Origin: a virus
DNA: 32,909 bases
Strand: one strand, 5' to 3'
Virus record (IMG/VR): IMGVR_UViG_3300009537_000091
Coordinates: 1-32,909 of that record
Shown here: positions 4,079-24,163 of the stretch, one piece after another
Layout of the letters: every line of letters begins with the position of its first letter
Position numbering within the stretch: position 1 is the first letter of the stretch
The notes under the pieces: generated by a model
Seen by the model: the letters and a program-made list of their open reading frames with translations, nothing else
What the model was told of the DNA's origin: nothing
Databases searched by the model: none
Position numbers and translations under genes: made by a program

Positions 4079-4082
4079 GATT

Positions 4083-5377: not shown

Positions 5378-5827
5378 ATGAAGATTCTGAAAATCGCAGT
5401 AGCGGTGCTGGCGAGTGGGTTGGCGTTCGTTGCCGACGCGCCCGCGCAGCAGTACGGCTCGGCGTTGTCGTACACCTTGACGCCAGTCTTGGCCGGGGTG
5501 ACGGAAACCAACCCGGTGCAAGTAGCCACGGTGACGAAGTATGAGGATGTCAGCATTCAAGTCAGCGGCAAGCTGGACGCTGCCGGCACGGATGTAACGA
5601 AGGTCAAGTTCGCACGGTCAGTGGACGGTGTGAACTATGAGACAACGCCATCGATGATTATCTCGCTGACGCACGCGGGAACCGTGACGACCAGTGTCGT
5701 ATCCAACTGGAACATCGGCGCGGTCGGCTACCTCAAATGCGTGGCGGTGACCAACGCGGCGGCCACAGCCAACCTCACGAACCTGACAATCCGGGTCAGC
5801 ACCAAGCCGTCGAGGTACGGACGATGA
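5378..5827 (+). CDS. Signal-peptide protein, paralogue 1, next to the capsid gene
   Basis: The 149-aa protein has a textbook Sec signal: MKILK, a hydrophobic core (IAVAVLASGLAFVA) and a likely APA|QQ cleavage site near residue 23. The mature part (about 125 aa) is Thr/Val-rich and probably an all-beta domain. Its blocks TKYEDVSIQVSG, SVDGVNYETTPS, GAVGYLKC and a closing KPSRYGR recur in the next gene, so the two are tandem paralogues. AGGAG lies before the ATG at 5378. The position suggests a capsid decoration role, but an export signal on such a protein is unexpected. No family is recognised. Confidence 0.85.
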   Translation: MKILKIAVAVLASGLAFVADAPAQQYGSALSYTLTPVLAGVTETNPVQVATVTKYEDVSIQVSGKLDAAGTDVTKVKFARSVDGVNYETTPSMIISLTHAGTVTTSVVSNWNIGAVGYLKCVAVTNAAATANLTNLTIRVSTKPSRYGR

Positions 5828-6255
5828 AAAGCATCATCCTAGCCCTCTTGGCCGGGTTGGTGGCCTTCAGCGCACAAGCGCAGCAGTACGAGGTAACAAT
5901 CGTCAAGACTCAAATGGTGGCGACGACCGGCACCAGCAACATCAACTCCGTCATCACGCTCACCAAGTATGAAGACATTGCGGTGGGGTTGCGGTTACTG
6001 GGCGGCAGCGTGGCCACCACGAATGGGAATGTGACGGCCTCGTTTGCGTTGTCCACCGACGGCGTAACCTACGAAACCACGGCCAGCCGAACGGTTGTGG
6101 GCGCAGCCAATGGTGTGACAGCGGTGCAAACCGTTGGGACAATCAACACCGGGGCGGCGGGATACCTGAAGCTGACTACGCTGGCGAACGCTAGTTATGG
6201 AACAGTGACGGGCGTTGTAACTATCTCGAAAAAACCGCAGCGGTTCGGTCGGTAA
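5824..6255 (+). CDS. Signal-peptide protein, paralogue 2
   Basis: The 143-aa protein begins MKSIILALLAGLVAFSAQAQ, a clear Sec signal with an AQA|QQ cleavage site near residue 19-20. The mature domain repeats the layout of its neighbour: TKYEDIAVGLRL, STDGVTYETTAS, GAAGYLKLT, KPQRFGR at the end. Signal sequences and mature domains both align, which points to duplication of a whole exported protein. The ATG overlaps the previous stop as ATGA, so production is coupled and perhaps stoichiometric. The gene is followed by a second strong hairpin. Function is unknown. Confidence 0.85.
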   Translation: MKSIILALLAGLVAFSAQAQQYEVTIVKTQMVATTGTSNINSVITLTKYEDIAVGLRLLGGSVATTNGNVTASFALSTDGVTYETTASRTVVGAANGVTAVQTVGTINTGAAGYLKLTTLANASYGTVTGVVTISKKPQRFGR

Positions 6256-6262
6256 TCAATCA

Positions 6263-6294
6263 GGGCCGGGGCGGGTTGATTCCTGCCCCGGCTC
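6263..6294 (+). other. Strong hairpin closing the two-gene exported cassette
   Basis: GCCGGGGCGGG (6265-6275) pairs with CCTGCCCCGGC (6282-6292) around a 6-nt loop TTGATT, with two further pairs outside. It starts 8 nt after the stop of the second paralogue and has no following T-run. With 5310-5357 it brackets the pair of exported genes. Confidence 0.65.
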
Positions 6295-6306
6295 ACAAAG
6301 GAAAAC

Positions 6307-6504
6307 ATGGCACGCAAGAATATCTTGAATCGAGCGGTGAAGGTGGAAGCGGACTCGCCGGCAGTTGCGCCGGTCGCATTCGTAACCGTGCGGGCGTTGG
6401 GGTGGATTGGCGAGGATGGAATCACCTACAAACCCGGCGACACTTTCCAGACGACACCACGCCGGGCGGCATCGCTGGGCGGCAATGTGGAGATTGTGAA
6501 GTAA
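6307..6504 (+). CDS. Small head-module protein (GD-turn type)
   Basis: The 65-aa protein has a C-terminal pattern DGITYKPGDTF...RRAASLGGNVEIV, like many small phage proteins with a DGxxYxxGDxF turn and a helix ending in a short strand, found between capsid and connector genes. AAAGGA lies before the ATG. Its role is unknown; it probably supports head completion. It sits directly upstream of the gp6-like connector. Confidence 0.7.
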   Translation: MARKNILNRAVKVEADSPAVAPVAFVTVRALGWIGEDGITYKPGDTFQTTPRRAASLGGNVEIVK

Positions 6505-6511
6505 AGGCAAC

Positions 6512-7480
6512 ATGGCAACCGAACGCATCACGTTTGATTTTCCGGGGCTACTGACCGTCGCGCAGACAAGTCAGCAGGCACGAGCGAGCTACAAACGCAC
6601 ACTGACGAAGGTGCGAATGAGCACGCTCGGCGTGGCGTCGGCGGCGACGGACATCAAGGTGCAGTTGCGGATTGCCGAGGCGGCGCAGGCCGTCGAGTAC
6701 GTTCTACCAGCGGGGCTGAAGTCGGCGGAGAATACGGCGGCAAGCGTGGTTGTGGCGGCTGGTACTTGGCATGATTTTATTGTCACGGCGACCGGCGATG
6801 CGGTTGATCTGAAGGTGGAAGCGGAGTTTGAGGTTGCGGTAACGGTAACTGGCGGCAGCACCACCGACTTGGGGCTGGGTACGCTGGGACAGTTGAAGCG
6901 GTTTGTGGTGGGAGCAGATGCCGCCTCGACGACCTATGACGAAGCGTTGACGTTGCTCGGCAAGGGCGTGGCCGGGTTGATTGACCGGCATTGCAACCGG
7001 ACATTCAAGCGGAGTGCGACGGCGACGGAGGATTTTCGTGGTGGCACAGACGTTTTACTTTTGGCGCGGTATCCCGTCGAGTCGGTTTCGACTATCGGGT
7101 TGAAATCCGTTGGCGAAACCTCATTCACCACGCAGACCGACGCTGTTGATACCGCCGCCGTTGACAGCGGAGTGGTGTTGTTGGTGTCCCCGGTGGGCAC
7201 CCACCGCGACCGGTTGCGCGTCACCTACGCGGGCGGCTACTGGTATGACACCAGCGATGACGATACCGGGACGCTACCGGAAGGCGCGGCATTGCTGCCG
7301 GCGGACGTGCAGATGGCTTGGCTGTTGCAATGTCAGCAGGTCTGGCAGAGCCGGGACGCGCTAGGCACCGCCCACGTTGAAGCGGAGACCGGAACGCTGT
7401 TGAACACGCGGCTGGGTATTCTAAAACTCATTCCGCAGGTCGAGGCGATGCTGGAACCATACCGGAGGTTGATGTTGTGA
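6512..7480 (+). CDS. Head-tail connector (gp6-like) with an extra N-terminal beta domain
   Basis: The 322-aa protein is in two parts. Residues about 140-322 resemble the gp6/gp15-like head-tail adaptor: TYDEALTLLGKGVAGLIDRH, CNRTF, FRGGTDVLLLARYPV, RVTYAGGY and a helical C-terminus (PADVQMAWLLQCQQVWQSRD). Residues about 1-115 form an additional Val/Thr-rich beta-type domain (DIKVQLRIAEAAQAVEYVLP) not normally present; usual family members are about 100-200 aa. It should form the ring below the portal. The stop overlaps the next gene's GTG (GTGA). Confidence 0.8.
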   Translation: MATERITFDFPGLLTVAQTSQQARASYKRTLTKVRMSTLGVASAATDIKVQLRIAEAAQAVEYVLPAGLKSAENTAASVVVAAGTWHDFIVTATGDAVDLKVEAEFEVAVTVTGGSTTDLGLGTLGQLKRFVVGADAASTTYDEALTLLGKGVAGLIDRHCNRTFKRSATATEDFRGGTDVLLLARYPVESVSTIGLKSVGETSFTTQTDAVDTAAVDSGVVLLVSPVGTHRDRLRVTYAGGYWYDTSDDDTGTLPEGAALLPADVQMAWLLQCQQVWQSRDALGTAHVEAETGTLLNTRLGILKLIPQVEAMLEPYRRLML

Positions 7481-8028
7481 TTGCGTTGACCATCAACGAG
7501 ACGGCCAGTGAGATGCTAAAGCAGGCATGGCAGCCGGCGGTCATGCGCGATTTACGGTGGACGATGGCCGAGCAGAATCAGGCAACCGTTGGCGAGATTC
7601 GCCGGTACAATCGGGGCAAGGGGCCATATTCACCTGAGCAGCACCGGCTCGGCGTTGTGACCAATCGGTGGCGGTCAAGTGTCCGAGCAACCGTCCCTCG
7701 TGTCAGCGGCGATGTGTTGACGGCCAGCATCGGCAGCAATGTCGAATACGCCGGAGCGCATGAGTTTGGGTTTCGTGGGCAGGTACAGGTCAAGGGGCAT
7801 CTGCGGCACGTCAAATCCCGTAACAAATATGTGAAGATTTTCGAGGGCGGTAAGTTGCGGCGGCGGTTGTCAGTCACCGGCTACACGACTGTTGCGCCAC
7901 ACAGCAAGAACCTAGACCTCCCCGCCCGCGCGCCGATCACCTACGGCATCGAGCAGCACAAAGCGAAATACGAAGCGGCTTTCAGCCGGAGCATCATCAA
8001 CACCCTGAAAGGGTTGGGGTTTAATTGA
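7477..8028 (+). CDS. Head-tail joining / tail completion protein (HK97 gp10-like)
   Basis: The 183-aa protein has the GSNVEYAGAHEFGFRG block and LPARAPITYGIE near the C-terminus, matching HK97 gp10/virion-morphogenesis-type proteins, where 'YA..HE.G' and 'PARPF' mark the fold. The basic middle (KSRNKYVKIFEGGKLRRR) is longer than usual. The start is GTG in a GTGA overlap with the connector. It likely completes the neck between head and tail. Confidence 0.8.
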   Translation: MIALTINETASEMLKQAWQPAVMRDLRWTMAEQNQATVGEIRRYNRGKGPYSPEQHRLGVVTNRWRSSVRATVPRVSGDVLTASIGSNVEYAGAHEFGFRGQVQVKGHLRHVKSRNKYVKIFEGGKLRRRLSVTGYTTVAPHSKNLDLPARAPITYGIEQHKAKYEAAFSRSIINTLKGLGFN

Positions 8029-8726
8029 GCAGCTATTTTGAACGCTTACAGAACGACATCACCGGCGCGTTACTCGCCGACATGGACAGCTATTTCTCTG
8101 ACGTGACGGTGGTCAGTGTGCGGTCGTTGGAAGCCGACAACATCGCAGCGGCGGCAGTGGCTGGTACGAAGGTTAAGAACGGCAAGTCCGGGGTGGCCGT
8201 GCGGGTGTTAATGCCGACGATCCGCAAGACCAGCAAGGAAGTCGTTTCGCTATTGCGCGCGCGCGTGGTGGTGCGCGTGGTGGAGAATCCGACCATCAAC
8301 AACGGCAGCATCGGCACCGGGAAGTCCGCCGAGGAAATCAGCGCGAAATGCTACGACATCCTTGACCGGCTGAAGCTGGCGTGGAGCAAGAACGAACTGA
8401 AGGCCGACGAAAGCGAGGTTGAACCGGCCATCGTGGACGGGATGCTACAATACGATTTGAGTTTCTATACGTTCCTGCCGACGGTTGGCCGCGCCGTAGT
8501 CGCTACTCCTAGCATCATCGTATCCTCAACCGTCGCTCTCGCCACCACGACCAGCGGCGCGGCTATCTATTACACGACCGATGGTGTGACGTTTCCCAGT
8601 GCGGCCAATGGCGCAACGCTCTACTCCGCGCCGATCACCACGCCGGCGAGCGGCACACTCATCCGGGCGGCAGCGTTCAAGGTCGGGCTGAGGCAATCAG
8701 ATGTTATCCACTACGAGGTCGCATGA
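8025..8726 (+). CDS. Probable tail terminator with C-terminal chitobiase-type (CHB_HEX_C) domain
   Basis: The 233-aa protein starts at TTG in a TTGA overlap. Residues about 1-155 fit, by position and size, the tail terminator/minor tail family (ARVVVRVVENPTINNG, SAEEISAKCYDILDRLKLAW). Residues about 160-233 read ATTTSGAAIYYTTDGVTFPS...YSAPITTPASGTLIRAAAFKVGLRQSDV. This is the pattern of the chitobiase/beta-hexosaminidase C-terminal Ig-like domain, usually found on secreted glycan-binding proteins. On a virion it could lie on the tail surface near the neck. Terminator assignment rests mainly on gene order. Confidence 0.7.
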   Translation: MSSYFERLQNDITGALLADMDSYFSDVTVVSVRSLEADNIAAAAVAGTKVKNGKSGVAVRVLMPTIRKTSKEVVSLLRARVVVRVVENPTINNGSIGTGKSAEEISAKCYDILDRLKLAWSKNELKADESEVEPAIVDGMLQYDLSFYTFLPTVGRAVVATPSIIVSSTVALATTTSGAAIYYTTDGVTFPSAANGATLYSAPITTPASGTLIRAAAFKVGLRQSDVIHYEVA

Positions 8727-8911
8727 GTTACCAGCATCCATTTGCTGACGCGCCGGAGAATGTGGCGATGATTTACACCCGGCCCGGCTGGGCGTCCCGG
8801 CTGGCGTGTGTCATTCGGGATGGGATTCTCTACACCGACAAGGGCGGGCGGCTCGATAAGCTGACAGACTTGCCGGCGGATGCCGTGTTGGAGGAGGCCG
8901 ATAATGGCTAA
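8723..8911 (+). CDS. Hypothetical small tail-module protein
   Basis: The 62-aa acidic protein (MSYQHPFADAPENVAMIYTR) has no recognised family. Its ATG overlaps the upstream stop as ATGA. Its 3' end overlaps the glycosyltransferase start by 8 bp and carries that gene's Shine-Dalgarno GGAGGAGG. The motif DGILYTDKGGRLDKLTDLP suggests a compact beta/turn fold. Its location next to the glycosyltransferase hints at a shared task, without direct evidence. Confidence 0.6.
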   Translation: MSYQHPFADAPENVAMIYTRPGWASRLACVIRDGILYTDKGGRLDKLTDLPADAVLEEADNG

Positions 8912-9650
8912 AATCCTCATTGCAACACCCTGCTACCACGCCGAAGTGTCGTTGAACTTCATGGCGTCGTTGCTGTACCAGACGCCGAAGCTGACGGCAG
9001 TGGGGCATACCGTTCAATTCATCTTCACCGCTGGCGATGCCGTCAACCGGCAGCGCAATCATCTCATTGCGGAGTTCCTGAAAACGGATTGCACACACCT
9101 GCTATTTGTGGACAGCGATACCGGATTCAACGGCGAAGACATCAACCGAATGCTCGCCGCCGGGGTGCCGGTCGTCGGGGTCAACTATCCCAAGCGGGAA
9201 TACTTCTGGCAACAGGCGGGCGGGGAGACGGTTGGCGATCTGCGTAACTCACTACTGCGCGGCAGCGTCGTAACCTACGCCGACCCGCAGGCCGTCGTGA
9301 GTGGCATGGTGCCATGCGCGTATATCGGCATGGGCGTCGCGTTGATTGACCGCGATGTGTTCACCGTCTTGATTCATCAGAAACGAGTGCAACCACTAAT
9401 CGCCGGCCAGCACCGGTTCTTTGCATTCGAGGTCGTCAACGGTGAAGACCTAGGCGAAGACTACAATTTCTGCAATCTCTGTCGGCAGGCTGGGTTCAAG
9501 GTGTATTACGATCCGGCGGCGACGGCGAGTCACATGGGCTGGCATGAGTTCAAGGGCCGGCCCCAACCGGCGGGCCTCGCGTCCGCTATAACCCAACAGC
9601 TTGCCGGCAACGGCGAGCACCAAGCAAAACAGGAGGCCACAAATGGCTGA
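8904..9650 (+). CDS. Glycosyltransferase, GT-A fold (GT2-like), inside the tail module
   Basis: The 248-aa protein transfers a sugar from a nucleotide-sugar donor to an unknown acceptor. It opens MAKILIATPCYHAEVSLNF, a nucleotide-binding strand-loop, and has a DxD metal site at D70-S-D72 (LLFVDSDTGFNG). A late acidic block, GEDLGEDYNFCNLCRQAGF, is followed by YYDPAATASHMGWHEF, as in small GT-A enzymes. GGAGGAGG sits 5-7 nt before the ATG at 8904. Being co-translated with tail genes suggests modification of a virion or fibre protein; receptor or cell-wall modification is an alternative. No membrane segment is seen, so it should be cytoplasmic. Confidence 0.85.
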   Translation: MAKILIATPCYHAEVSLNFMASLLYQTPKLTAVGHTVQFIFTAGDAVNRQRNHLIAEFLKTDCTHLLFVDSDTGFNGEDINRMLAAGVPVVGVNYPKREYFWQQAGGETVGDLRNSLLRGSVVTYADPQAVVSGMVPCAYIGMGVALIDRDVFTVLIHQKRVQPLIAGQHRFFAFEVVNGEDLGEDYNFCNLCRQAGFKVYYDPAATASHMGWHEFKGRPQPAGLASAITQQLAGNGEHQAKQEATNG

Positions 9651-10023
9651 CTATGCAGGAGTATGGCAACTTGGCGCTGGCTTTACAGTCGCCTTTGCCG
9701 GAACGACCTATGCGAACCCGCTGAAGGTTCAACTACCGGAGGTTTCAGTCTTTACCAAAGACCTCGTAACACTCGCGGGCTGCACCCCGTTAGTCGGGAA
9801 GAAACGGAACAAGCTCGGCGACATCGGCGTGACCGTGGCCGGGTATGCTGACGGCACGCTCGTAGCCGAACCGCCGACCAGTGGCGCGTTGACCGTAACG
9901 TGGCCGGATGGCACGGCGAAAAGCGCGACGGCGTATCTTGTCAAAGACACACCGGGCGATGCCGATCCCGAAGCCGAAATGACCCGCGTCATCATGTTTA
10001 AACCGGTGGCGGTGTTAGCATGA
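9643..10023 (+). CDS. Probable major tail tube protein
   Basis: The 126-aa protein (MADYAGVWQLGAGFTVAFAG) has a mostly beta composition. It lies directly before the tail chaperone pair and tape measure, where the tail tube gene is expected. AGGAGG precedes the ATG at 9643, giving an 8-bp overlap with the glycosyltransferase. It is on the small side for tube proteins (often 130-250 aa), and no signature motif is visible, so the assignment comes from gene order. Confidence 0.6.
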   Translation: MADYAGVWQLGAGFTVAFAGTTYANPLKVQLPEVSVFTKDLVTLAGCTPLVGKKRNKLGDIGVTVAGYADGTLVAEPPTSGALTVTWPDGTAKSATAYLVKDTPGDADPEAEMTRVIMFKPVAVLA

Positions 10024-10415
10024 GCAATCTGCGCGAGGCGATTACAGCCGCCGCGCAGAAACCGCCGGTGGCATTTGTATCTGCGGCTCACGACGGGCAG
10101 ACGGTGTACATCCGCCGTCTGTCCGGTCAAGAGGTCGGGGCGTACTGGGTGAGCATCAAAGACAAGGCGGCGGGCCAAGTCCAGCAGATGCTTGTCCAGC
10201 GGTGCCTAGCCGACGAAGGCGGCGCGCAACTGTTTACCCCGGCAGAACTGGCGGATGTGGCGAAACTCGACAACGCTTTTCTGGAGGAAGTGGCCGGGGA
10301 GGCGCAACGGGTGAACTGTCTCACGACGCGGGATGTGGAAACGATGCGGGCAAGTTTTTTCGAGAAGCGGGCGACCGCTGGCTCTACGAGTTCGCCCGTG
10401 ACTTTGGAGAATTGA
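10020..10415 (+). CDS. Tail assembly chaperone, short (gpG-like) product
   Basis: The 131-aa protein is made when ribosomes stay in frame. It should bind the tape measure and recruit tail tube subunits, as lambda gpG does. It is helical from about residue 35 onward (QEVGAYWVSIKDKAAGQVQQ). It overlaps the tube gene as ATGA. A slippery heptamer at 10355-10361 lies 55 nt before its stop codon and leads to a longer product. Confidence 0.78.
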   Translation: MSNLREAITAAAQKPPVAFVSAAHDGQTVYIRRLSGQEVGAYWVSIKDKAAGQVQQMLVQRCLADEGGAQLFTPAELADVAKLDNAFLEEVAGEAQRVNCLTTRDVETMRASFFEKRATAGSTSSPVTLEN

Positions 10416-10597
10416 ACCCGGAGGAAATGCTATCACGACTCCGACCAGAACAAGTCGCCAAGTGGCAAGCCTTCTACGCGGTATCCCCAGCGACGGGGCC
10501 GCGTCTAGACCGGCTCGTGCTGGAATTGGCGAACGTGCTGATTACGCTGAAGGGCGGGAAGGCAATCAAAGGCGAGTCATTGGTTACATGGCGGTGA
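10020..10597 (+). CDS. Tail assembly chaperone, long (gpGT-like) -1 frameshift product
   Basis: Translation reads frame 1 from 10020 through TTC at 10359-10361, then slips back one base and continues from 10361 to the TGA at 10595-10597. The fusion is 192 aa: 114 shared residues plus 78 from the -1 frame (REAGDRWLYEFARDFGELNP). The downstream frame has no good start of its own, ends just before the tape measure and has normal codon usage, as in lambda G/GT and many siphoviruses. The long form is the minor product that bridges tape measure and tube. Confidence 0.82.
10355..10361 (+). promoter_or_regulatory. Programmed -1 frameshift slippery site T_TTT_TTC
   Basis: The heptamer is in the canonical X_XXY_YYZ phase for the zero frame (TTT 10356-10358, TTC 10359-10361). 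After slippage both Phe tRNAs re-pair with TTT. The -1 frame then stays open for 78 codons. Confidence 0.82.
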
Positions 10598-10601
10598 CGG
10601 C

Positions 10602-11852
10602 ATGCGCGCGAAGATAGACATCATCGCCCAACTGTACGGCGCGGAGCGTGTGCAGCGGGACATGGTCGCGATGACCAATTCCGCGACAGCGATGCAGCAG
10701 CGCATCAACTCGACAACCGGGATTGGCGGCGGGAGTGGATACACTCCAATGAGTGCGGAGGCGGCGGGGCGGCAGATACAGGCCAAACTCGAAGCGGGGA
10801 TTGCTGGCAACACAGAGCAACGGCTGGCAAGGATGGCCTCGGGGTTCAAGATTGCGGCAGCGGAGTCTAATGGGTTCGGTTCGGCGATGGCGCGGCTTGA
10901 CCCGCGCATGGCGATTGTCGCCAGCCGACTGACCGGCATCGATCCAATGCTTCTGCGGATTGGTTTCCGGTTTGGGGTGTTCGGCGCGGCGGCGGCAGCG
11001 GGGTTAGCTGTACTAAACAGCAGCATCGAATCAGTGCGGAGCAACCTAAAAGAGTTGGAGTTACAAGACCCCGGCAAGCTCGGCACGCTGGCGAACATTT
11101 ACGGACTCGGTGGTGGTTGGCAGACGGACATGGAAGCGCGGAAGGCGCGACAATCGTCACGAGCAGAAGGCATCGCCGCGATGACGCGGGAGCAGTTTGC
11201 GGCCCCCGATTGGGAAAAGGAGTTTGAGAAGTTTACCAAGCCGCTGGTCGAAGTCGGGATTATCAGCGCGGCAACATATCGGCAGTGGTACGAGGCGGCC
11301 AAGAAAGCAGTGGACGAGGAAACTAATCTTGCCGAGAAACGCAAGGCATGGGCGGAGTCTAGTCGTGATGAGGCGGCGAAGCAGGCGAGGTTACAAGAAG
11401 ATTTAACGACAGCCCAAGCTAATAATCGGTGGGCGGGATTGAGTGCCGAGGAGAAGCGGGCTGACTTAGTGAAAGAGATTGCCGATAATGAGAAGTTTAT
11501 TGCAGAGTTTGGTAAGACCGCGGCGCTGCCGACCATGATAGAAAATGAACGGAAGAAGGGGCAACTCGCGGAGATTGACCGAGGCATCGCCGCCAAGAAC
11601 GCGGCCCAAGCAGCCGAGAATCGACGCGAGGCAATCGCGCCGTGGTTGTCGGAAATGAAGAAGCCCGCCGGGTTCGCGGCAACGACTCTCACGAATAGCT
11701 TGGAAGGCTCGCAATCCGTCGCGCTGGCGTCGTCAGCCAAAGAACGGCAAGAAGCCACACAGCGAGCCATGCAACAGCAGATTGCCTTGCTCGAAGCCAT
11801 CAAAACCAACACCGGCAAGAATGCTGGTGGCACTGAAACTTGGAGCAACTAA
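10602..11852 (+). CDS. Tape measure protein (short)
   Basis: The 416-aa protein has a hydrophobic region around residues 115-150 (RIGFRFGVFGAAAAAGLAVL). Long charged coiled coils follow (residues about 180-350, rich in E, K, A, R). The C-terminus QQQIALLEAIKTNTGKNAGG is typical of phage tape measures. It follows the frameshifted chaperones by 4 bp. At about 0.15 nm per residue it predicts a tail of roughly 60 nm, short for a siphovirus. No lytic transglycosylase or peptidase motif is visible, so it does not supply the missing muralytic activity. Confidence 0.8.
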   Translation: MRAKIDIIAQLYGAERVQRDMVAMTNSATAMQQRINSTTGIGGGSGYTPMSAEAAGRQIQAKLEAGIAGNTEQRLARMASGFKIAAAESNGFGSAMARLDPRMAIVASRLTGIDPMLLRIGFRFGVFGAAAAAGLAVLNSSIESVRSNLKELELQDPGKLGTLANIYGLGGGWQTDMEARKARQSSRAEGIAAMTREQFAAPDWEKEFEKFTKPLVEVGIISAATYRQWYEAAKKAVDEETNLAEKRKAWAESSRDEAAKQARLQEDLTTAQANNRWAGLSAEEKRADLVKEIADNEKFIAEFGKTAALPTMIENERKKGQLAEIDRGIAAKNAAQAAENRREAIAPWLSEMKKPAGFAATTLTNSLEGSQSVALASSAKERQEATQRAMQQQIALLEAIKTNTGKNAGGTETWSN

Positions 11853-11855
11853 CCC

Positions 11856-12806
11856 ATGCCAGCGAGCGTTCAAGCGGTCTATGAGTTGCCGGAGATTGAG
11901 GGCGGCGGCGGATTTAACCTAGCCGACTTTACCCGGCGACGGTCATGGTGTGTCACCTTAACTGAGCCGGCAGCGAATGGCGGGGAGTTGGCGTTGGCGG
12001 GCAGTGGTATCCCAGCCATCGGCGCGGCGCACCCGACCTTGACCGGGTTGCTGGCGGCGCGGTACGGATTCCGCCTTGACTCAGACATCCGGGACGGCTC
12101 GGTCTGGGTGGTCTCGGTTGACTACGAAATACCGCAATCCGATAACAACTCTGACCCGTGGAGCCGGGAAGACCGGATTTCGTTTGGCGAATCGCGGTAT
12201 GAGGTACCGGCGACAGTGGACAAATCCGCCACGCCATTGGCCTACAAGAATGCCGTCGGTGAACCGTTGGCGGTAACCGATACGAAAATCAACCCTGTGC
12301 TGGTTGTCAATCGCTACCGAAAGCGCACCACGTTTGACCCCTTCTTGGCTTATGCCGTAGTGAACACACTGAACAGTTCCGGCTTCTCGATTCGTGGGGC
12401 GTCAATCCCTAGCAAGAAAGCCTTGCTGCTCCGGTTCACTGTGGATGACCAGACATGGAGCGACGGCACAACGCTCTACGCGATTCGGATGGAGTTAGAA
12501 CTTGAGGCGCAGATGCCACTGGAAACACAGAAGTATCACAACAAGAGTTTCTACTGCTACACCACCGCGAGCACGCCCTCATCCAAGACGCGGGTGGAAG
12601 TTGAGGTCAAAAACTGGCTGGTGTCCCCGGCGGCATCCTATTCACCGAAACGCACCGCGCCGGTCGTTGAACCCGTTTTCTTGAATACTGACGGCACGGT
12701 AATGACAATCACGGGCAGTGACGCTACCGACAGCGCGGCAGTGGTTGCTAATTCCATCACGCGCGTGCGCTACGCGGCAGCCTCATGGTCGGCATTATTG
12801 GCGTGA
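11856..12806 (+). CDS. Tail structural protein downstream of the tape measure
   Basis: The 316-aa protein opens MPASVQAVYELPEIEGGG. The order WVVSVDYEIP, PWSREDRISFG, YEVPATVDK, YKNAVGEPL, VLVVNRYRK, AVVNTLNSSGF resembles a recurrent family of phage tail proteins of unknown exact role that follow tape-measure genes. I know the pattern but no name. A distal-tail or hub role is likely from position. The ATG is 4 nt after the tape measure stop. Confidence 0.65.
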   Translation: MPASVQAVYELPEIEGGGGFNLADFTRRRSWCVTLTEPAANGGELALAGSGIPAIGAAHPTLTGLLAARYGFRLDSDIRDGSVWVVSVDYEIPQSDNNSDPWSREDRISFGESRYEVPATVDKSATPLAYKNAVGEPLAVTDTKINPVLVVNRYRKRTTFDPFLAYAVVNTLNSSGFSIRGASIPSKKALLLRFTVDDQTWSDGTTLYAIRMELELEAQMPLETQKYHNKSFYCYTTASTPSSKTRVEVEVKNWLVSPAASYSPKRTAPVVEPVFLNTDGTVMTITGSDATDSAAVVANSITRVRYAAASWSALLA

Positions 12807-12809
12807 TTT

Positions 12810-13418
12810 ATGAGCACCGGCATCAACTTCGCCCCGCCGTTGGCTCGCCGGATTGTCACGGTCACGGATGCGTACTATGCGCGAGCGAAACACACCACGG
12901 TCGGCGGTGAGGCGGTATTCAGCGGCGGGTTTGAGCCGCAGCTTCTGTTCGGCACCCTGACCGGCAATTTTACTGGCCCTGCCGAAACGTTCGCGGTTCA
13001 ACCTTCAGACGTGTTCGGCGTGGCGATTGACGGGGCTGACCCGGTGACCGTGCAGATTCTTGCGAGTGGCGACAGTGTGTACTTGACCGGCATCACCGGG
13101 GTGAACCTACCGACCGGCACCGTCATTCCGTATGTGGCCGGGGTAGTAGGAACAACCCCGAAGAACCTGAGCTTGCTTGACATCCCGACCCGGTGTTGCA
13201 CCGGCGAGATTCAGGTTTCGAGCGGGATGTTCCAGACGAAATACTTCTGGAACATGGGGGTGGTGAGCAGCACGGTCTCAGAGTTTACGGACTTAGTGGG
13301 GCTGCAGTTGACCGTATCCTCTAGCACCCTGAAGCTACAGTATAAGTTGAACGGTGGAAGCTGGACAGACCTTACCTCGTTGACCACCAGCCCGACACCG
13401 GACGGAGGGTGCGCGTAA
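12810..13418 (+). CDS. Hypothetical distal tail protein
   Basis: The 202-aa protein (MSTGINFAPPLARRIVTVTD) is rich in Thr, Val, Gly and Ser, predicted mainly beta, with a paired CC (TRCCTGEI) near residue 130. No family is recognised. It lies 3 nt after the previous gene and shares one base with the next (TAATG), so it belongs to the distal tail block. The C-terminal KLQYKLNGGSWTDLTSL looks like a small carbohydrate-binding-type beta module. Confidence 0.6.
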   Translation: MSTGINFAPPLARRIVTVTDAYYARAKHTTVGGEAVFSGGFEPQLLFGTLTGNFTGPAETFAVQPSDVFGVAIDGADPVTVQILASGDSVYLTGITGVNLPTGTVIPYVAGVVGTTPKNLSLLDIPTRCCTGEIQVSSGMFQTKYFWNMGVVSSTVSEFTDLVGLQLTVSSSTLKLQYKLNGGSWTDLTSLTTSPTPDGGCA

Positions 13419-13909
13419 TGCCTTCTGTTTTAGTTAATTGTGACGGCGACAAGATACTGGTCAACTGCGCCGGCGATAAAGTCTTGGTGGATGCGCCGTG
13501 CTCGCTTTGTGTGTGCATCCCCGAATCATTCAACATCGGCTATCAGTGGCGGCATGTTACCGACGGCGGCTCTACCGCTTGGACTCCCGCGACTTTAGAA
13601 GTACTCGCCGGTAGTTTCTACCAAGACGGCGATGATTGTGCAACGGCGTGGTTTGACCCGTTCGACACCGGCGGCACCTTTTTCCGGTTGTTCATTACCG
13701 ACACGCCCTCGCTGCAATCGGCGATCCAATATGGCGGGGTTGAGGGCGTTTGGAATCCATACCCGCCGGTCACGCTTTCTACGCTGGCGCAATGTCCAGA
13801 CCAGAATCATCCATTTAGTGGGACGGCAACGTGGGTGGAGAACATTGAGGGCACGAACGTGTACCAGATGAAAGAAATCACCGTGCAGGTGCCGGAGGTG
13901 GGGATATGA
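13418..13909 (+). CDS. Hypothetical tail protein with short N-terminal tandem repeat
   Basis: The 163-aa protein begins with two near-identical units, VLVNCDGDKI and LVNCAGDKVLVD, followed by CSLCVC. The remainder is aromatic-rich and beta-like (GYQWRHVTDGGSTAW, YQDGDDCATAWFDPF, GGVEGVWNPYPP). GGAGGG lies before the ATG at 13418. No family is recognised. The cluster of six cysteines in the first 40 residues could bind metal, and resembles in style the Cys-rich proteins encoded next. Confidence 0.6.
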   Translation: MPSVLVNCDGDKILVNCAGDKVLVDAPCSLCVCIPESFNIGYQWRHVTDGGSTAWTPATLEVLAGSFYQDGDDCATAWFDPFDTGGTFFRLFITDTPSLQSAIQYGGVEGVWNPYPPVTLSTLAQCPDQNHPFSGTATWVENIEGTNVYQMKEITVQVPEVGI

Positions 13910-14127
13910 GTTGCGGGCGCGGCGCAGCGGCAAGCCCGGCCACCATCCGGTTGCGCCGGGATGTTTGCCGGGATTGTGACCAAGCCACCCGCAGCGCCGC
14001 CCCGTGCTTCGCCAAGCATAACGGGCTGACCACTCTGTCCACCTGCCGGCTCTGCAACTGTTTCATCGCCACCAAGACCAAACTCGCCGCCGAAGCCTGC
14101 CCCGCAGGAAGGTGGAGCCGACAATAA
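13906..14127 (+). CDS. Small cysteine-rich zinc-binding protein
   Basis: The 73-aa protein carries VCRDC, PCF, TCRLCNCFIATKT and CPAGRW. This is a recurrent pattern in small phage proteins (CxxC...CxxCxC..AKT..A...CPxGxW) that probably folds around zinc. It overlaps the upstream stop as ATGA. The role is unknown; such genes often lie beside distal tail genes. Confidence 0.68.
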   Translation: MSCGRGAAASPATIRLRRDVCRDCDQATRSAAPCFAKHNGLTTLSTCRLCNCFIATKTKLAAEACPAGRWSRQ

Positions 14128-14141
14128 AGGGAGAGGAACCC

Positions 14142-14285
14142 ATGCTCGATATTTATCACCACTACGTTCACCAGACCTGCACGATGAGGAAGAAGCTGCC
14201 GGGGCTGGCCTGTTGCGTTGGGTGTTCGGACTATCTGAAACCGTTGCAAGCGCGGCAAGAAAATGTTATAGGAGACCCGAAATGA
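14142..14285 (+). CDS. 47-aa Cys-containing small protein
   Basis: The ORF (MLDIYHHYVHQTCTMRKKLP) encodes 47 aa with a CCVGC cluster near residue 24. GGGAGAGGA lies before its ATG, and its stop overlaps the next ATG at 14282 as ATGA; both support translation. No family is known. It fills the gap between the Cys-rich protein and the first exported fibre-like gene. Confidence 0.62.
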   Translation: MLDIYHHYVHQTCTMRKKLPGLACCVGCSDYLKPLQARQENVIGDPK

Positions 14286-15664
14286 AAAGAACTTTTGTCT
14301 TACTGGTTGCGGTGCTCCTCACTGTGCTCAACACCTTCGCCGCGCAAGAATACTACTTCACGATCACCGACGGCACCAAGACCGGCATTGTATCCCGATT
14401 GAGCGTCAGCGGCACCGGCGTAGCGAGTCTGACCTTGACCAATGCGGGCGGGTATCGGTGGGGGATTTTAGATATTGCCGGCGGCGGTGGGTCTACTTCC
14501 ACCAACGGGCTGGCGACGATAGTGTATGTGGACGGCGCGACGAATGCGCTCTGGCAATCGGCGTTGACGTTGACGAATGGCGTGGCCTTGTTGACCGGGG
14601 CGACGTTCAGCGGCTCGGTCGCCGCGCCGAGCTTTGAGGCCACACCGGGCCAGCCGGGAACGCCGCAGTATCTCTCGCGGGCGAACACCAATCAAACGCA
14701 GGCGGTGTTGATGGCTCAAAATAATTCCGGCAGCGAGACCTTTTTCCTGATTGGCCCGGCGGGTGGGGTGAACATCGGCGGCACGAACTATCCCGGACAC
14801 GGCAACCTCCAGTGGTCAGGCGGGGCGACCGGCGACGGCAGTGGAATTAGCAACGTAACGGCGGCGAGCCTGACCGGGGTGGTGACGGCGACGAACCCGG
14901 CAACATCGTGGGTATTGACGTTGGATACGGGCTCGATTGTGCAATACACCAACACTGCCGCCAACATCACCTTCTACCGGCCAGACGGCGGCGACTGGAC
15001 GCTGGGCTGGGAGTACTCCGGCCAAGACGCGGTCAACGCCGCCTACGCCAGTAACTCCACGCCGTTACCGGTCGCAGTGAACTACAACGACGGCGGGCTG
15101 ACGTGGCCAGCGGGCTGGTACGGTGGGGTAGTGCAACTCGGCTTCGGCAACATCACCAGCAACCAGTTTCTGGCGCGGGTGGGGGACCAGATTGTCGGCA
15201 CGAATATCACGACCGGCGGCGGCGGCTCGACCATCACCAACGACTTCCTGCGGTTGATGGCGCGGAGTGCGCTGATTCGGCAAGGCACCGCCAGCCGCAG
15301 TATGTTCGGGGAGCGAATCATCATGCAGTCCGCAACGGACGAGTTTGCGTGGCCTCAGATACCGGCCTCGCGCACCGTGACCACCAATAGCGCAGTCGTG
15401 GCAATCTGGGCAATCAGTCCGACCGGCAACCAGACTTCGACTTGGGAGTTGGCGTTTGCTCCGTCGATTGGCTCGACGAACATTCCCATTTACACGCAGG
15501 TGACGAACCTAACGGTCATCGGCGGGGGCAGCGCAACGTATGTGCCCGTCAACATCTTCACCAACTGGCCCGCGAATCTGCTGGGCAACATCCGCATCAA
15601 ATACGTTTCAGGAGGAACCAATGAAGCTGTCGCTTTGGCTATTGACCGGTCTGCTACCCCTTAA
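14282..15664 (+). CDS. Tail-fibre-like protein with N-terminal Sec signal peptide
   Basis: The 460-aa protein starts MKRTFVLLVAVLLTVLNTFA, a strong signal peptide with a likely TFA|AQ cleavage site. After it comes a Gly/Ser/Thr/Asn-rich beta protein with phage-fibre wording: TGATFSGSVAAPSFEATPGQ (residues about 118-137) and GDGSGISNVTAASLTGVV (about 203-220). The C-terminal part (TTNSAVVAIWAISPTGN onward) looks like a receptor-binding beta domain. AGGAG precedes the ATG at 14282. A signal peptide on a tail fibre is highly unusual, since tails assemble in the cytoplasm. Whether it reaches the virion is unknown. Confidence 0.82.
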   Translation: MKRTFVLLVAVLLTVLNTFAAQEYYFTITDGTKTGIVSRLSVSGTGVASLTLTNAGGYRWGILDIAGGGGSTSTNGLATIVYVDGATNALWQSALTLTNGVALLTGATFSGSVAAPSFEATPGQPGTPQYLSRANTNQTQAVLMAQNNSGSETFFLIGPAGGVNIGGTNYPGHGNLQWSGGATGDGSGISNVTAASLTGVVTATNPATSWVLTLDTGSIVQYTNTAANITFYRPDGGDWTLGWEYSGQDAVNAAYASNSTPLPVAVNYNDGGLTWPAGWYGGVVQLGFGNITSNQFLARVGDQIVGTNITTGGGGSTITNDFLRLMARSALIRQGTASRSMFGERIIMQSATDEFAWPQIPASRTVTTNSAVVAIWAISPTGNQTSTWELAFAPSIGSTNIPIYTQVTNLTVIGGGSATYVPVNIFTNWPANLLGNIRIKYVSGGTNEAVALAIDRSATP

Positions 15665-15956
15665 CGTGCTCGCGCAAGGCAACGTTTGGACGGCGCAAGT
15701 GGAACAGCGGGTGAACCGCTCGCGCACGGATTACCGGTGGAACGGCGAGAAGTATCTACCGGCCACCCCACAACCGCCGCTGGTGGAGTTCAGCGTGTTT
15801 GTGACTAACCTTAACCAACGGGTGACGGTGGAGTTTCCCGCGCAGGCCAACGCCAACGCACTCACCAACCGGCTCAATGCGGAAGTCCTCTCCACGCTGG
15901 CGCAACGAGGAACACCGACGGCGGGCAAACAACTCAAATGGATATCGGCCCGATGA
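15621..15956 (+). CDS. Small exported protein downstream of the fibre gene
   Basis: The 111-aa protein starts MKLSLWLLTGLLPLNVLAQG, a Sec signal with a VLA|QG site. The mature part includes VFVTNLNQRVTVEFPAQANA and a helix (ALTNRLNAEVLSTLAQRG). AGGAGGA lies before the ATG, inside the end of the fibre gene (44-bp overlap), so translation is deliberate. No family is recognised. It may be a partner or chaperone of the exported fibre. Confidence 0.75.
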   Translation: MKLSLWLLTGLLPLNVLAQGNVWTAQVEQRVNRSRTDYRWNGEKYLPATPQPPLVEFSVFVTNLNQRVTVEFPAQANANALTNRLNAEVLSTLAQRGTPTAGKQLKWISAR

Positions 15957-16264
15957 AATGGCTCGCACTCATTTTGCTGGCAGCAACCGGCGCGGTTCTG
16001 GCCTCGGCGCCGGTGGTCAAGGTCGCCATCTTGGAATATCTCGTCAGCGAAACCGTGATTGACGAAGTGAACGCCGTCACCAACACCACGCACCGCTACA
16101 TCTTCGGCACCGATGCGCCAGTCCTCGGCACGTCGCGGGGCGCGGTGGTGTTCAATACCCAACCCGACAGTCTTACGCTCTCCAATGCGGTCGTGGCCGG
16201 GACGCGGGCATTGATGAAACCGTTCGGGCTGGAATCGGCCACGGTGGAGGTGAAGCTGCCATGA
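15953..16264 (+). CDS. Small exported or membrane-anchored protein
   Basis: The 103-aa protein starts MKWLALILLAATGAVLASAP, a signal peptide with a possible VLA|SA site; without cleavage it would be a membrane anchor. The rest is a mixed alpha/beta domain (VVKVAILEYLVSETVIDEVN). I chose the ATG at 15953 because of the ATGA overlap; the ORF opens five codons earlier. No family is recognised. Confidence 0.72.
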   Translation: MKWLALILLAATGAVLASAPVVKVAILEYLVSETVIDEVNAVTNTTHRYIFGTDAPVLGTSRGAVVFNTQPDSLTLSNAVVAGTRALMKPFGLESATVEVKLP

Positions 16265-17703
16265 AGCGACTGCTAATTTTAGTGATTCTGTGGCCGCTGC
16301 TGGCGTTGGGTCAGGTCACGAACATTGCCACTGGCAACTGGACTAACTCGGCAACATGGGCCGGGTCAATAGTGCCAACCAACACCACCGCCGAAGCGGT
16401 AGTGACCGGCTACGTCGTCACGGTGTCGAGTAGCATCAATCCGTCAAATGTATGGTTGACTGGCGGTCAGATTACGAGGAGCGCGGGGAGTCCTTTGTTT
16501 AAGGGGACGTTAACAGTCAGCGGTGGCACGTTAAATCTCGGTGGCGGCGGCTGGTACGTCGCTGGAATCGGAACGGCAAATGGCGACCCAGCGGCACGAT
16601 TTGTCATTACCGGCGGCGTCGTCACCAATGGGTCGATTGGTGTACAATCTTATACTGGGTCCACAACCGTTGACTTTTCTGCGCTCGCCAATTCTCCCTA
16701 CCTATTCAACGTGCGCCTCGAAACGCAAGCCTCAGGCACCGGAGCACGGAATATTATCGTTACAAATGCAACCAATAGCGGCATCATCAATACTGAATTT
16801 ACCGGGCCAGCCGCCCATTCGGTTTTGATTTCAAATTGTACGCTTCGGAGCACTTCATGGCGCTTCGGTGGGAACTCCACCAACACGCTCGTCGTGGACA
16901 GCACCCTGACACTCCAAGGCGCGCTATACAACATCGGCGGGGCCAGCACCACCAGTTCTGTGATTCGGAGTACGCTTCTGTTTGTGGGTAGCGGAGCGTC
17001 GATGCCGATATCCCCTCGATACGCTTACGATTCTATCTTCGCAGCGACAAACCAAACTGCGAGCACGGGTATTTTACTAAACGGGTTGATCAGTTACTCC
17101 AACAACACCGTGCGGATCGAGAACGCAGCGTCCACGGCGGTTTATACTCCAACCGATGTTGGGGTTTCATATATTGATATTAGATCGGGTGGGACATACC
17201 GGGCATTTGGCCCTATCAACGCCAATGCGATTGATACCGCCGGTACGTTGCAGACTTCTGGTTTTCAGTTGACCGCCACCACCATCACCAATGCCGGCAC
17301 CATCGTCGCCAGCAACAGCACCATCGTTGTTGATCGCAGCTTCCACAACACTGGCGTATTCAGCCAAATGACGAGTGCCGTCCATTTCAATGTGTCCACG
17401 AACACGGCCACATCGAACCTCACCAACTACAACAACGTGGTCTGTACGCGAGCCGGGAAGACGGTCAACCTCACCAATGCGGCCATCACCATTGCCGGGG
17501 TGTTGACCTTCACCGGCAGTCCCGGCCTGCCGGTCGTGCTCGACGGCAACGGCGCGACCTTGACCCTTTCTACCGGCAGCGTCAACCCGTTTACGGCAGC
17601 GCGCAACCTGAACATTCAAGGTGCGATTGCCACGTTCAGCGATGGCAACCACGACCGGGCCAGCGGGCGCATCAACCTGTTGCCCGTGGGAGATAACCCG
17701 TGA
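16261..17703 (+). CDS. Exported beta-helix / G8-like adhesin or tailspike-like protein
   Basis: The 480-aa protein starts MKRLLILVILWPLLALGQV, a Sec signal with an ALG|QV site. Residues about 22-60 (NIATGNWTNSATWAGSIVP...VVTGYVVTV) follow the G8-type 'GNWsdpaTWggxxP...VtV' pattern. The remainder is a run of short Gly/Thr/Asn-rich turns (LTVSGGTLNLGGGG, TTITNAGTIVASNSTIVVD) expected of a right-handed parallel beta-helix. This would suit glycan binding or depolymerase activity, though no catalytic residues can be identified. It ends the exported block and overlaps the previous gene as ATGA. Confidence 0.78.
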   Translation: MKRLLILVILWPLLALGQVTNIATGNWTNSATWAGSIVPTNTTAEAVVTGYVVTVSSSINPSNVWLTGGQITRSAGSPLFKGTLTVSGGTLNLGGGGWYVAGIGTANGDPAARFVITGGVVTNGSIGVQSYTGSTTVDFSALANSPYLFNVRLETQASGTGARNIIVTNATNSGIINTEFTGPAAHSVLISNCTLRSTSWRFGGNSTNTLVVDSTLTLQGALYNIGGASTTSSVIRSTLLFVGSGASMPISPRYAYDSIFAATNQTASTGILLNGLISYSNNTVRIENAASTAVYTPTDVGVSYIDIRSGGTYRAFGPINANAIDTAGTLQTSGFQLTATTITNAGTIVASNSTIVVDRSFHNTGVFSQMTSAVHFNVSTNTATSNLTNYNNVVCTRAGKTVNLTNAAITIAGVLTFTGSPGLPVVLDGNGATLTLSTGSVNPFTAARNLNIQGAIATFSDGNHDRASGRINLLPVGDNP

Positions 17704-17716
17704 TAAAAAGGATACG

Positions 17717-18073
17717 ATGAGTCCCCAACACAATCAGACGTTACCGGAATGCCAAGTCAAGTTTGAGGCGGTGGACAAAGGATTTGAGCGACTGGAAGCC
17801 AAGATCGACCTTTTGCACGTAAGAATCTCCAACGGGATTGCCGACCGGATGCACGCTTTTGATGTTGACCTCGCGCTGCTGAAACAGGAACGCGCCCGGT
17901 CAAGTAGGATTGTGGCAACCGTCCAGACGGCGGTTGTCTCGGCGGTGGTGGGGTTGGCGGGGCTGTTCATCTCGCAGACGATCTCGTGGAACTATAAGCA
18001 GGCGGTGAAAGACCGGCAGGAGATGGAACAGCAACTCAAGAAGATTCTCAGTGAAGTCAAAGACATCCAATGA
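17717..18073 (+). CDS. Coiled-coil single-span membrane protein, XhlA/holin-like
   Basis: The 118-aa protein has an N-terminal amphipathic helix (CQVKFEAVDKGFERLEAKID), one membrane span at about residues 67-90 (VATVQTAVVSAVVGLAGLFI) and a charged C-terminal helix. This resembles the coiled-coil-plus-TM layout of XhlA-type lysis accessory proteins, though there the TM is nearer the C-terminus. AAGGA precedes the ATG at 17717. It opens the putative lysis/membrane block after the tail genes. Confidence 0.65.
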   Translation: MSPQHNQTLPECQVKFEAVDKGFERLEAKIDLLHVRISNGIADRMHAFDVDLALLKQERARSSRIVATVQTAVVSAVVGLAGLFISQTISWNYKQAVKDRQEMEQQLKKILSEVKDIQ

Positions 18074-18261
18074 GCAAACCGGAAACCATTGTCGGCAAGA
18101 TTGAGTTCGCGCCGGGCGGCAGCACCAGTGAATCGGTGTTGCGGGCTTTACTGGAAATGCGCGACGCGGAAATAGTGGCCGTGCGGAAAGAGCTAACGCG
18201 AACCCAACGGTTTCTCAAGGCCGCATACGACATGCTCGAAAATCGGCGGGTGCTGAAATGA
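18070..18261 (+). CDS. Small helical hypothetical protein
   Basis: The 63-aa protein (MSKPETIVGKIEFAPGGSTS) is mostly helical after residue 20 (ESVLRALLEMRDAEIVAVRK). It is joined by ATGA overlaps to both neighbours, which are membrane proteins. It has no membrane span and no recognised family. Confidence 0.62.
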   Translation: MSKPETIVGKIEFAPGGSTSESVLRALLEMRDAEIVAVRKELTRTQRFLKAAYDMLENRRVLK

Positions 18262-18833
18262 GTCCCGGCTACGACCAACATGCTGAACATTCGCTTGGCT
18301 GGATTGCCGTCAGTCTGATGCTGTTCGCGTTGATTGCCGGGTTGATGCTGTCCACCTGTGGGTGTGGCGGGGTGCTCCGGCAGACCCAACCGGTCATGCA
18401 GGCTGTGGAGAAGGTGGCCACGCGGTTGGAAGAAAAGACGCTGCCGGTGTTGGAAGTTGCGGTGGAACGGATGGGCGCGGCGGCCACGAACGTCGCGGCG
18501 CGCGTAGCGGTCTCGACGAAACATTCCGAGGAACGGCACAACTGGTTTATGGCGAAGTTGAACGAAGTCTGGCCATTCATCACGGCAATCCTCGGCGGGC
18601 TGGCGTTGTATGTCGGCGGTCGCTGGCACAAACACAAGACGCTGGTGGACGCCGGTCAACGGCAGGGCATCCTTTTCCGGCGGCTTGACCCCGAAACAGA
18701 GCTTGAGCGGGAACTGGTGAAGTCCGATGTGCTGGCTTCTTACGTTGCCAAACTCGCGGCGCAGGACAAACCGGCGGGCACCCCGCCACAATCCTTGAAT
18801 CAACCGGTCAACTCCGTTACTGTCGCGCCATGA
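18258..18833 (+). CDS. Two-span membrane protein of the putative lysis block
   Basis: The 191-aa protein has a first hydrophobic segment at about residues 14-34 (WIAVSLMLFALIAGLMLSTC) followed by CGCGG. That is reminiscent of, but not strictly, a lipobox. A helical middle (QPVMQAVEKVATRLEEKTLP) and a second span at about 109-126 (WPFITAILGGLALYVGG) follow. The C-terminus is charged then Pro-rich. Candidates are a holin or spanin-like protein. It overlaps both neighbours as ATGA. No catalytic motif is seen. Confidence 0.62.
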   Translation: MSPGYDQHAEHSLGWIAVSLMLFALIAGLMLSTCGCGGVLRQTQPVMQAVEKVATRLEEKTLPVLEVAVERMGAAATNVAARVAVSTKHSEERHNWFMAKLNEVWPFITAILGGLALYVGGRWHKHKTLVDAGQRQGILFRRLDPETELERELVKSDVLASYVAKLAAQDKPAGTPPQSLNQPVNSVTVAP

Positions 18834-19120
18834 AACCGATTGAATCAGAGTTCAAGAAAGACGGCTACCAGTTCCGGTTGATTGATCGGGTGGGCGACTT
18901 CGGCCTATTCCGTAAGACCAAAGGTGAGGCCGTGGAATCGTTCGAGGTAGTCAAAATCCAGAAGTGCAAGGCGCACACCTGGCCGGATGGCCGGACAACC
19001 GAAGCTCGCGAATCCATGCCCTGCTCGGAGCAGTGGGGTACTTATGGCTGGACGCATAACACGATTCAGGCGGCTAGACAGTGTTTAGGGGTCAAAAGCG
19101 TCTTAACGGCCACCGCCTAG
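18830..19120 (+). CDS. Hypothetical protein
   Basis: The 96-aa protein (MKPIESEFKKDGYQFRLIDR) has the layout of small phage proteins with a GDFGLFRK strand pair and a W/C-rich end (SEQWGTYGWTHNTIQAA). No family is named. It is coupled by ATGA to the membrane protein before it. A 52-nt gap follows that contains a weak GGTTA/TAACC hairpin, so it may end a sub-operon. Confidence 0.62.
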   Translation: MKPIESEFKKDGYQFRLIDRVGDFGLFRKTKGEAVESFEVVKIQKCKAHTWPDGRTTEARESMPCSEQWGTYGWTHNTIQAARQCLGVKSVLTATA

Positions 19121-19172
19121 AGAACCAGAAGGGGTTACAGGCCTAACCAGAACCAACCAAAGAGAGGAAACC

Positions 19173-19643
19173 ATGAAGAAACTAATCACCGTAACACTTG
19201 CGGCGTTTATCGTCGCAATCTCCGCACAGGCACAGGAATCCGCCAAACCGCAACCAGCGTGGTTTAAGGTGGCCTTGACCTTGCTCGACAAATCGCCGGC
19301 CAAGCAGATTCACTTCTCCGGCGTGTACCTCGCCGACCTCGACACCCAAAAGATTCACCGGGGCGGCGTCGCGGTGGAGTATTCGTTGCTCGACTGGCGC
19401 GTGAAAGATTGGATTGAAGGCAAGGCCGGCCCCGCAGTCGTCACCCCGGCGGACTTGGAACATCTGTTTGTCGGCATCGCGACCACGCTGTCACTGGTCA
19501 AGGACGGCGCACCGGAACGCTGGATTGCCGACCGGACACCGGTCAAGGAAGCCTCACGGTTCTACCTGTTCATCGTCGGCGGCAGCCAAGTGGACAAGTC
19601 GAACGCCTTTGTTGCCGGCGGCGCTGGTGTGAAGTTTTGGTGA
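19173..19643 (+). CDS. Exported protein with Sec signal peptide, near the end of the late operon
   Basis: The 156-aa protein starts MKKLITVTLAAFIVAISAQAQ, a clear signal peptide with an AQA|QE cleavage site near residue 20. The mature region (FKVALTLLDKSPAKQIHFSG, EYSLLDWRVKDWIEG, FVAGGAGVKFW at the end) suggests a small beta-barrel or outer-membrane-type fold ending in an aromatic residue, but this is inference. AGAGAGGAAA precedes the ATG. It is the seventh signal-peptide protein of the late region. No muralytic motif is visible. Confidence 0.8.
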   Translation: MKKLITVTLAAFIVAISAQAQESAKPQPAWFKVALTLLDKSPAKQIHFSGVYLADLDTQKIHRGGVAVEYSLLDWRVKDWIEGKAGPAVVTPADLEHLFVGIATTLSLVKDGAPERWIADRTPVKEASRFYLFIVGGSQVDKSNAFVAGGAGVKFW

Positions 19644-20764: not shown

Positions 20765-20865
20765 TCATTCTCCTTGGTTGTGCAGCTTGGTTTCTCCGGC
20801 AACTCTACCGGGCCAATCGTGTCCTCATCGTCGTCATCCAGCCATAGCCCGTCCACGTCGCTCAC
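20761..20865 (-). CDS. 34-aa acidic micro-protein
   Basis: A GTG-started ORF (MSDVDGLWLDDDDEDTIGPV) encodes 34 aa with eleven Asp/Glu in the first 25 residues. It overlaps the upstream gene as GTGA and the metallophosphoesterase as ATGA, so it neatly bridges the two. Its 3' end carries the Shine-Dalgarno AAGGAG of the downstream gene. Function is unknown. Confidence 0.5.
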   Translation of the reverse strand: MSDVDGLWLDDDDEDTIGPVELPEKPSCTTKENE

Positions 20866-23819: not shown

Positions 23820-23825
23820 GCCGCT

Positions 23826-23854: not shown

Positions 23855-23894
23855 GCGTGATTCGCGCCCCAACAAATCGCCGCAGCGAATGTCG

Positions 23895-24152: not shown

Positions 24153-24163
24153 CGGTTGTCCTT

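Follow-up and report, generated by a model that had tools for sequence, protein, structure and literature searches.

Tailed phages are thought to assemble wholly in the cytoplasm of their host cell. The coat proteins of filamentous phages are virion proteins carrying Sec signal peptides, and these inoviruses assemble at the inner membrane. The absence of a signal peptide was used as support for a protein being phage-derived versus displayed on the bacterial surface (PMC6199706). Here, we analyzed the IMG/VR virus record IMGVR_UViG_3300009537_000091 (positions 1-32,909; this whole stretch of viral DNA of 32,909 nucleotides is called the window), in which seven late-operon open reading frames (ORFs) carry Sec signal peptides. 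We propose that virion-type fibres and a capsid-associated jelly-roll protein of this phage lineage are exported via Sec, fold in the periplasm and join the particles at or after lysis, a reading to which we assign a probability of roughly 50%. In the papers searched, no tailed-phage virion protein was described as carrying a signal peptide, in agreement with the first-pass annotation of this DNA, which knew of no described phage system with such an arrangement.

The first-pass annotation had read Sec signal peptides at the N-termini of the seven ORFs. This was borne out by a purpose-built signal scorer combining a 15-position cleavage-site matrix, the n-region charge and an uncharged hydrophobic core; from its training list of 30 signals, 29 scored at least 12.5 and one failed. 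All seven ORFs show an n-region charge of at least +1, a 9-residue core with a mean Kyte-Doolittle value of 1.8-3.6 and a (-3,-1)-compatible site, with scores ranging from 24.9 (ORF 5824; ORFs are named by their first position) to 9.0 (ORF 15621) and 5.9 (ORF 16261) at the low end. Most of them follow a Shine-Dalgarno (SD)-like sequence or overlap the preceding gene by 4 bases. The slash marks the predicted cleavage site:

5378..5827, + strand: predicted exported jelly-roll family member 1 (family alignment, profile match); signal MKILKIAVAVLASGLAFVADAPA/QQYG; SD-like AGGAG upstream
5824..6255, + strand: predicted exported jelly-roll family member 2, tandem paralogue; signal MKSIILALLAGLVAFSAQA/QQYE
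14282..15664, + strand: predicted exported fibre-like protein, 460 aa; signal MKRTFVLLVAVLLTVLNTFA/AQEY; GDGSGISN motif
15621..15956, + strand: predicted exported 111-aa protein; signal MKLSLWLLTGLLPLNVLA/QGNV; AGGAGG upstream
15953..16264, + strand: predicted exported 103-aa protein; signal MKWLALILLAATGAVLA/SAPV; 4-base overlap with the preceding gene
16261..17703, + strand: predicted exported repeat-rich protein, 480 aa; signal MKRLLILVILWPLLALG/QVTN; lowest score, A-x-G site; beta-helix suspected from sequence only
19173..19643, + strand: predicted exported 156-aa protein after lysis-like genes; signal MKKLITVTLAAFIVAISAQA/QESA

For ORF 5378, the matrix favours cleavage at ADA/PAQQ, whereas the family alignment favours APA/QQY, the site named in the first reading. 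Wrong start codons were ruled out, since the starts are in frame, mostly with an SD sequence, and the family alignment fixes the cleavage site.

Relatives were collected using the capsid gene as an anchor:

4080..5303, + strand: major capsid protein, HK97 fold, PF05065 (Pfam Phage_capsid, 1.6e-40; PHROG 10, 3.3e-46)

The capsid profile search resulted in 53 related IMG/VR contigs and two contigs from Verrucomicrobia metagenome-assembled genomes (MAGs), many of the relative contigs being fragments. As controls, 308 homologs of portal, protease, capsid, connector, gp10, terminator, major tail, tape-measure and terminase proteins from the same phages were scored under comparable criteria allowing any start codon. 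Two of them were positive, ruling out chance hydrophobic N-termini, and at this rate seven signal-positive genes among approximately 30 late genes correspond to p ~1e-9. An internal negative control is given by the following gene:

6512..7480, + strand: head-tail connector (C-terminal 200 aa) with an extra N-terminal domain; signal-free

Homologs of this connector are present in more than 40 relatives and none of them carries a signal. Its extra N-terminal domain of ~115 aa is found at full length only in L002, other relatives matching the connector part alone. In lambda, HK97 and T1, with 57 annotated genes scored, both the score and the core threshold are passed by lom, Rz and cor only, and none of the tail fibres of these phages is positive. 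As a summary, the seven ORFs all carry good Sec signal peptides, by which the proteins are predicted to be exported and cleaved.

The small gene beside the capsid gene belongs to a family conserved in the relatives, ORFs 5378 and 5824 being tandem paralogues. A total of 27 profile matches, of which about 21 are distinct, was identified (25 in the window and the fetched relatives, two from two further loci), the other members showing only 16-39% identity to the window copy. An export-type N-terminus with charged n-region and hydrophobic core is present in 27/27, bearing out the conservation of the signals in related genomes. The matrix score exceeds 5 in 25/27, and the two exceptions, L007 and the second copy in L018, keep clear hydrophobic cores. 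In nearly all members, the folded part begins with a conserved Q-Q-Y (or Q-x-Y/F) that has A or G immediately in front of it, the usual junction being A-x-A/QQY, and the signal is variable in sequence and in length (~17 to >30 residues). AlphaFold2 predicts for ORF 5824 an 8-strand beta-sandwich with a mean pLDDT of 83.7, in which the core exceeds 90 and the signal region is unstructured (~50). These data bear on the possibility that the hydrophobic N-termini do not export but stay uncut and serve the assembly of the particle, by assembly close to the membrane, by trimer nucleation or by insertion in the course of infection. This would be compatible with the sequence, and the signal scorer is home-made; however, the A-x-A/Q junction immediately in front of the folded domain is kept despite a variable upstream part, the N-termini follow the three-part n/h/c design, and the signal segment is modelled with low confidence and no structure, so that we regard uncut N-termini as quite improbable.

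The jelly-roll gene is mostly located directly after the capsid gene and lies ~5 kb upstream in L025 and L032. On G391, the contig of L032, a 497-aa signal-bearing protein directly follows the capsid gene instead (reverse complement, 22930-24423); a rearranged head module is also seen in L006, in which a portal-like ORF (2985-5201) lies downstream of the capsid gene. Small, beta-rich and encoded beside the capsid gene, the family resembles decoration proteins in these respects. No significant PHROG or Pfam match was obtained for it, and Foldseek showed no specific relation to a known decoration family. Of the structural work suggested in the first reading, modelling yielded a jelly roll for ORF 5824. 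Its structure matches are generic jelly rolls and include spore appendages, carbohydrate-binding modules (CBMs) and lectins as well as the tail-needle knob of a phage and a phage cement protein.

Signal-bearing fibre-like proteins rich in N/T/S/G are encoded in the tail module, sometimes in the head module, of 21 of the 26 relatives assessable for this trait, a count that is approximate because some calls hinge on the choice of the start codon and on contig fragments. The large genes are mostly located between the major tail protein and tape-measure genes, and their products include tailspike- and fibre-type domains: a pectate-lyase/epimerase domain of the beta-helix type in the 1190-aa protein of L032 (PF12708, 3e-12), YadA head repeats in L022 (Pfam, 4e-7) and a GDSL-like domain in L023 (2e-5, below the Pfam cut-off). 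In tail-module position and domain content, the proteins of the relatives thus correspond to tail fibres or tailspikes. In four contigs of 30-38 kb (G390, G391, G392 and G399), all listed proteins with fibre-like N/T/S/G content bear a signal, and there is no obvious signal-free fibre. Several fibres share a domain directly after the signal, termed A5. In L012 and L049, A5 is also found at the front of a protein with a signal whose gene immediately follows the jelly-roll gene of the head module. The best Foldseek match of the A5 model is the neck fibre of cyanophage A-1(L) (E 1.8e-4, the sole match below 1e-3); the neck of phage XM1, the DEV collar and the Ur-lambda tail tip rank lower among the matches. 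Searching host genomes with the A5 profile gave weak matches only, to giant repeat proteins or unrelated ORFs. In L004, a small protein encoded between fibre genes and tape measure (20413-20958) matches PHROG 1128 and looks by eye like an NlpC/P60-type peptidase; a lysis enzyme may therefore sit in the tail module.

On the capsid tree (47 rows), signal-bearing fibres occur on every main branch with two inferred changes. The fibre signals are missing in L038, L047, L054, L055 and L056, all of one well-supported clade in which L043 is positive; the fibre of L056 is collagen-like and signal-free. The most economical reading is that the trait is ancestral and was lost once or twice. The idea of a single odd genome is ruled out by this spread, the trait being lineage-wide. 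A separate case is found in a Verrucomicrobiota genome (L058/L102, G232 contig 87): in an unrelated phage region, a capsid-like ORF is followed downstream by a weak jelly-roll homolog lacking a signal (hhalign 90%) and then by a signal-bearing 413-aa protein. The PHROGs matched by the latter (1e-27 to 2e-3) comprise virion structural, baseplate and tail-fibre proteins, an independent hint that such signals can be present on ordinary virion-type domains.

These observations suggest the following mechanism. The late operon would produce the small jelly-roll protein encoded next to the capsid, in one or two versions, together with a set of fibre- or tailspike-like proteins. Sec would move both across the inner membrane, signal peptidase I would cut at A-x-A/Q, and the exported proteins would fold and presumably oligomerise in the periplasm, while heads and tails, whose core structural proteins are signal-free, would be assembled in the cytoplasm as usual. 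Lysis would mix the compartments, and the exported fibres and decoration proteins would bind to the particle at or after lysis, the fibres via the N-terminal neck/collar-fibre-like domain, this applying only to relatives having that domain. The mature proteins are assigned to the periplasm by their signals and the lack of anchors, and to the particle by gene position, fibre/tailspike content and the neck-fibre-like domains; attachment at or after lysis would reconcile the two. Joining virions only at lysis was one of three options offered by the first-pass annotation, and it is the one best supported by the structural modules, the missing anchors and the neck/collar-fibre-like domains of several proteins, from which we infer the joining step itself.

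Several points weigh against this proposal. Membership in the virion is presumed from position, fibre/tailspike content and neck-fibre-like domains; the jelly-roll folds are generic; the A5 model is moderate (pLDDT 66), CnaB/pilin-type domains are also among its structural matches, and the N-terminus of ORF 14282 does not match the A5 profile. Moreover, one clade of the capsid tree is mostly without the trait, and to our knowledge post-lysis attachment of exported fibres is without precedent in tailed phages. Finally, the cultured verrucophage P8625, which is of similar size, was reported without a signal peptide in any protein (PMC4642752), and the trait is thus not universal among Verrucomicrobia phages.

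Another option of the first-pass annotation was that the exported proteins form a layer at the surface or in the periplasm of the infected cell, which would act in superinfection exclusion or receptor masking. The signal peptides agree with it, and export is known from phage exclusion proteins such as T1 cor, a lipoprotein by sequence. However, a hydrophobic-helix check and inspection of the mature parts revealed neither a lipobox at +1 nor a clear transmembrane helix, no sorting signal was seen at the C-termini that were read, and exclusion factors are usually single small proteins rather than several long fibres. A surface layer is accordingly improbable. The third option, a secreted decoy set, found no specific support.

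ORFs 14282, 15621, 15953, 16261 and 19173 have no detectable relatives: IMG/VR scans with 14282, 16261 and also with 5824 alone resulted in none, and 15621 and 19173 have none in the fetched loci. Comparison of the window's exported proteins, including 14282 and 16261, with PHROG and Pfam gave no meaningful match. The case for these five is built on their signals, composition and position and on analogy. The term "capsid-adjacent" of the first reading refers to gene position only, and its labels "fibre-like" for 14282 and "beta-helix-like" for 16261 have their basis in composition and motifs. The following genes lie between this block and ORF 19173:

17711..18073, + strand: small protein with one C-terminal hydrophobic segment, holin-like architecture; PHROG 1863 (unknown function), 3e-4
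18258..18833, + strand: membrane protein with an N-terminal lipobox-like LMLSTCGCG and a second hydrophobic segment; no family match

The architecture of the former suggests that a lysis module adjoins the exported block. This neighbourhood would fit the main rival explanation, i.e., that the exported proteins are no virion proteins but soluble periplasmic or secreted depolymerases, lectins or adhesins conditioning the infected cell or its surroundings by envelope loosening, dispersal of capsule or slime, or aid to release or host finding. The resemblance to fibres would then be explained by polysaccharide binding being common to both, and the polysaccharide-active domains (PF12708, GDSL-like) as well as the CBM and lectin folds among the jelly-roll structure matches agree with it. 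However, the genes are located inside head and tail modules, usually beside the capsid gene or between the major tail and tape-measure genes, several fibres carry the neck/collar-fibre-like domain after the signal, and several contigs have no other evident fibre set although the phage needs a receptor binder. Taken together, exported non-virion proteins appear rather unlikely, though they are the strongest of the rivals.

The two MAG contigs with related capsids are labelled Verrucomicrobia and Akkermansiaceae, and the host phylum is therefore probably Verrucomicrobiota, binning errors being possible. The capsids of L010 and L050, on an Akkermansiaceae MAG contig and an IMG/VR contig, are identical, a possible host link for that clade. 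Among 388 Verrucomicrobiota genomes, good matches were found to the jelly roll in one and to the capsid in two, suggesting that the lineage is rarely seen as a prophage. This, together with the lack of an integrase among ten early genes scanned and the spread over the capsid tree with few changes, argues against host-like exported genes that were repeatedly captured as morons for lysogenic conversion; exported morons such as lambda lom, which was positive in the scorer control, are well known, but such an origin is very improbable here. In the named-phage collection, capsid searches gave distant matches only (<30% identity), and tblastn with the jelly roll and two signal-bearing fibres gave zero matches.

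PHROG and Pfam identify the head genes of the window as a portal with head-morphogenesis domain, a protease and the HK97-fold capsid. The terminase large gene is divided, its C-terminal part being located at 18-629 and a small-terminase-like ORF at 31891-32289, so that the terminase genes are spread over both record ends (1-629 and 31891-32909), which suggests a circularly permuted, near-complete genome. The early genes include a DNA polymerase beta-like palm/thumb protein (25938-26501, - strand) and a DUF4326 protein (22467-22937, - strand).

That fibres and capsid decorations exported via Sec and matured in the periplasm complete the particles of a tailed-phage family, which would amount to a two-compartment assembly undescribed for Caudoviricetes, has in our view slightly less than even odds. 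If the fibres of this lineage are exported, tailed-phage assembly has a periplasmic route, the rule that phage-derived proteins lack signals fails, and annotation pipelines will mistake receptor binders for surface proteins of the host. It would also raise the questions of fibre addition in trans after lysis, of a gain of disulfides or glycans and of the coating of neighbouring particles.

Compared with known systems, the proteins resemble tail fibres and tailspikes of tailed phages in being long, N/T/S/G-rich and encoded in the tail module, in the PF12708, GDSL-like and YadA domains and, by a moderate model in several relatives, in an N-terminal domain similar to neck or collar fibres; however, the known ones are cytoplasmic and signal-free, whereas here a Sec signal precedes the domain. 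Similarly, jelly-roll decoration or cement proteins share the usual gene position beside the capsid and the small all-beta fold, the KHP40 cement protein being among the structure matches, but here every member has a Sec signal, there is no PHROG or Pfam sequence relation, and binding to the capsid is presumed. Lambda Lom, T1 Cor and the spanins are likewise phage-encoded proteins with Sec or lipoprotein signals, yet they are host-envelope proteins, whereas here several long fibre-type proteins are distributed across structural modules. Finally, unlike the filamentous phages, these are tailed double-stranded DNA phages with terminase, portal and HK97-fold capsid.

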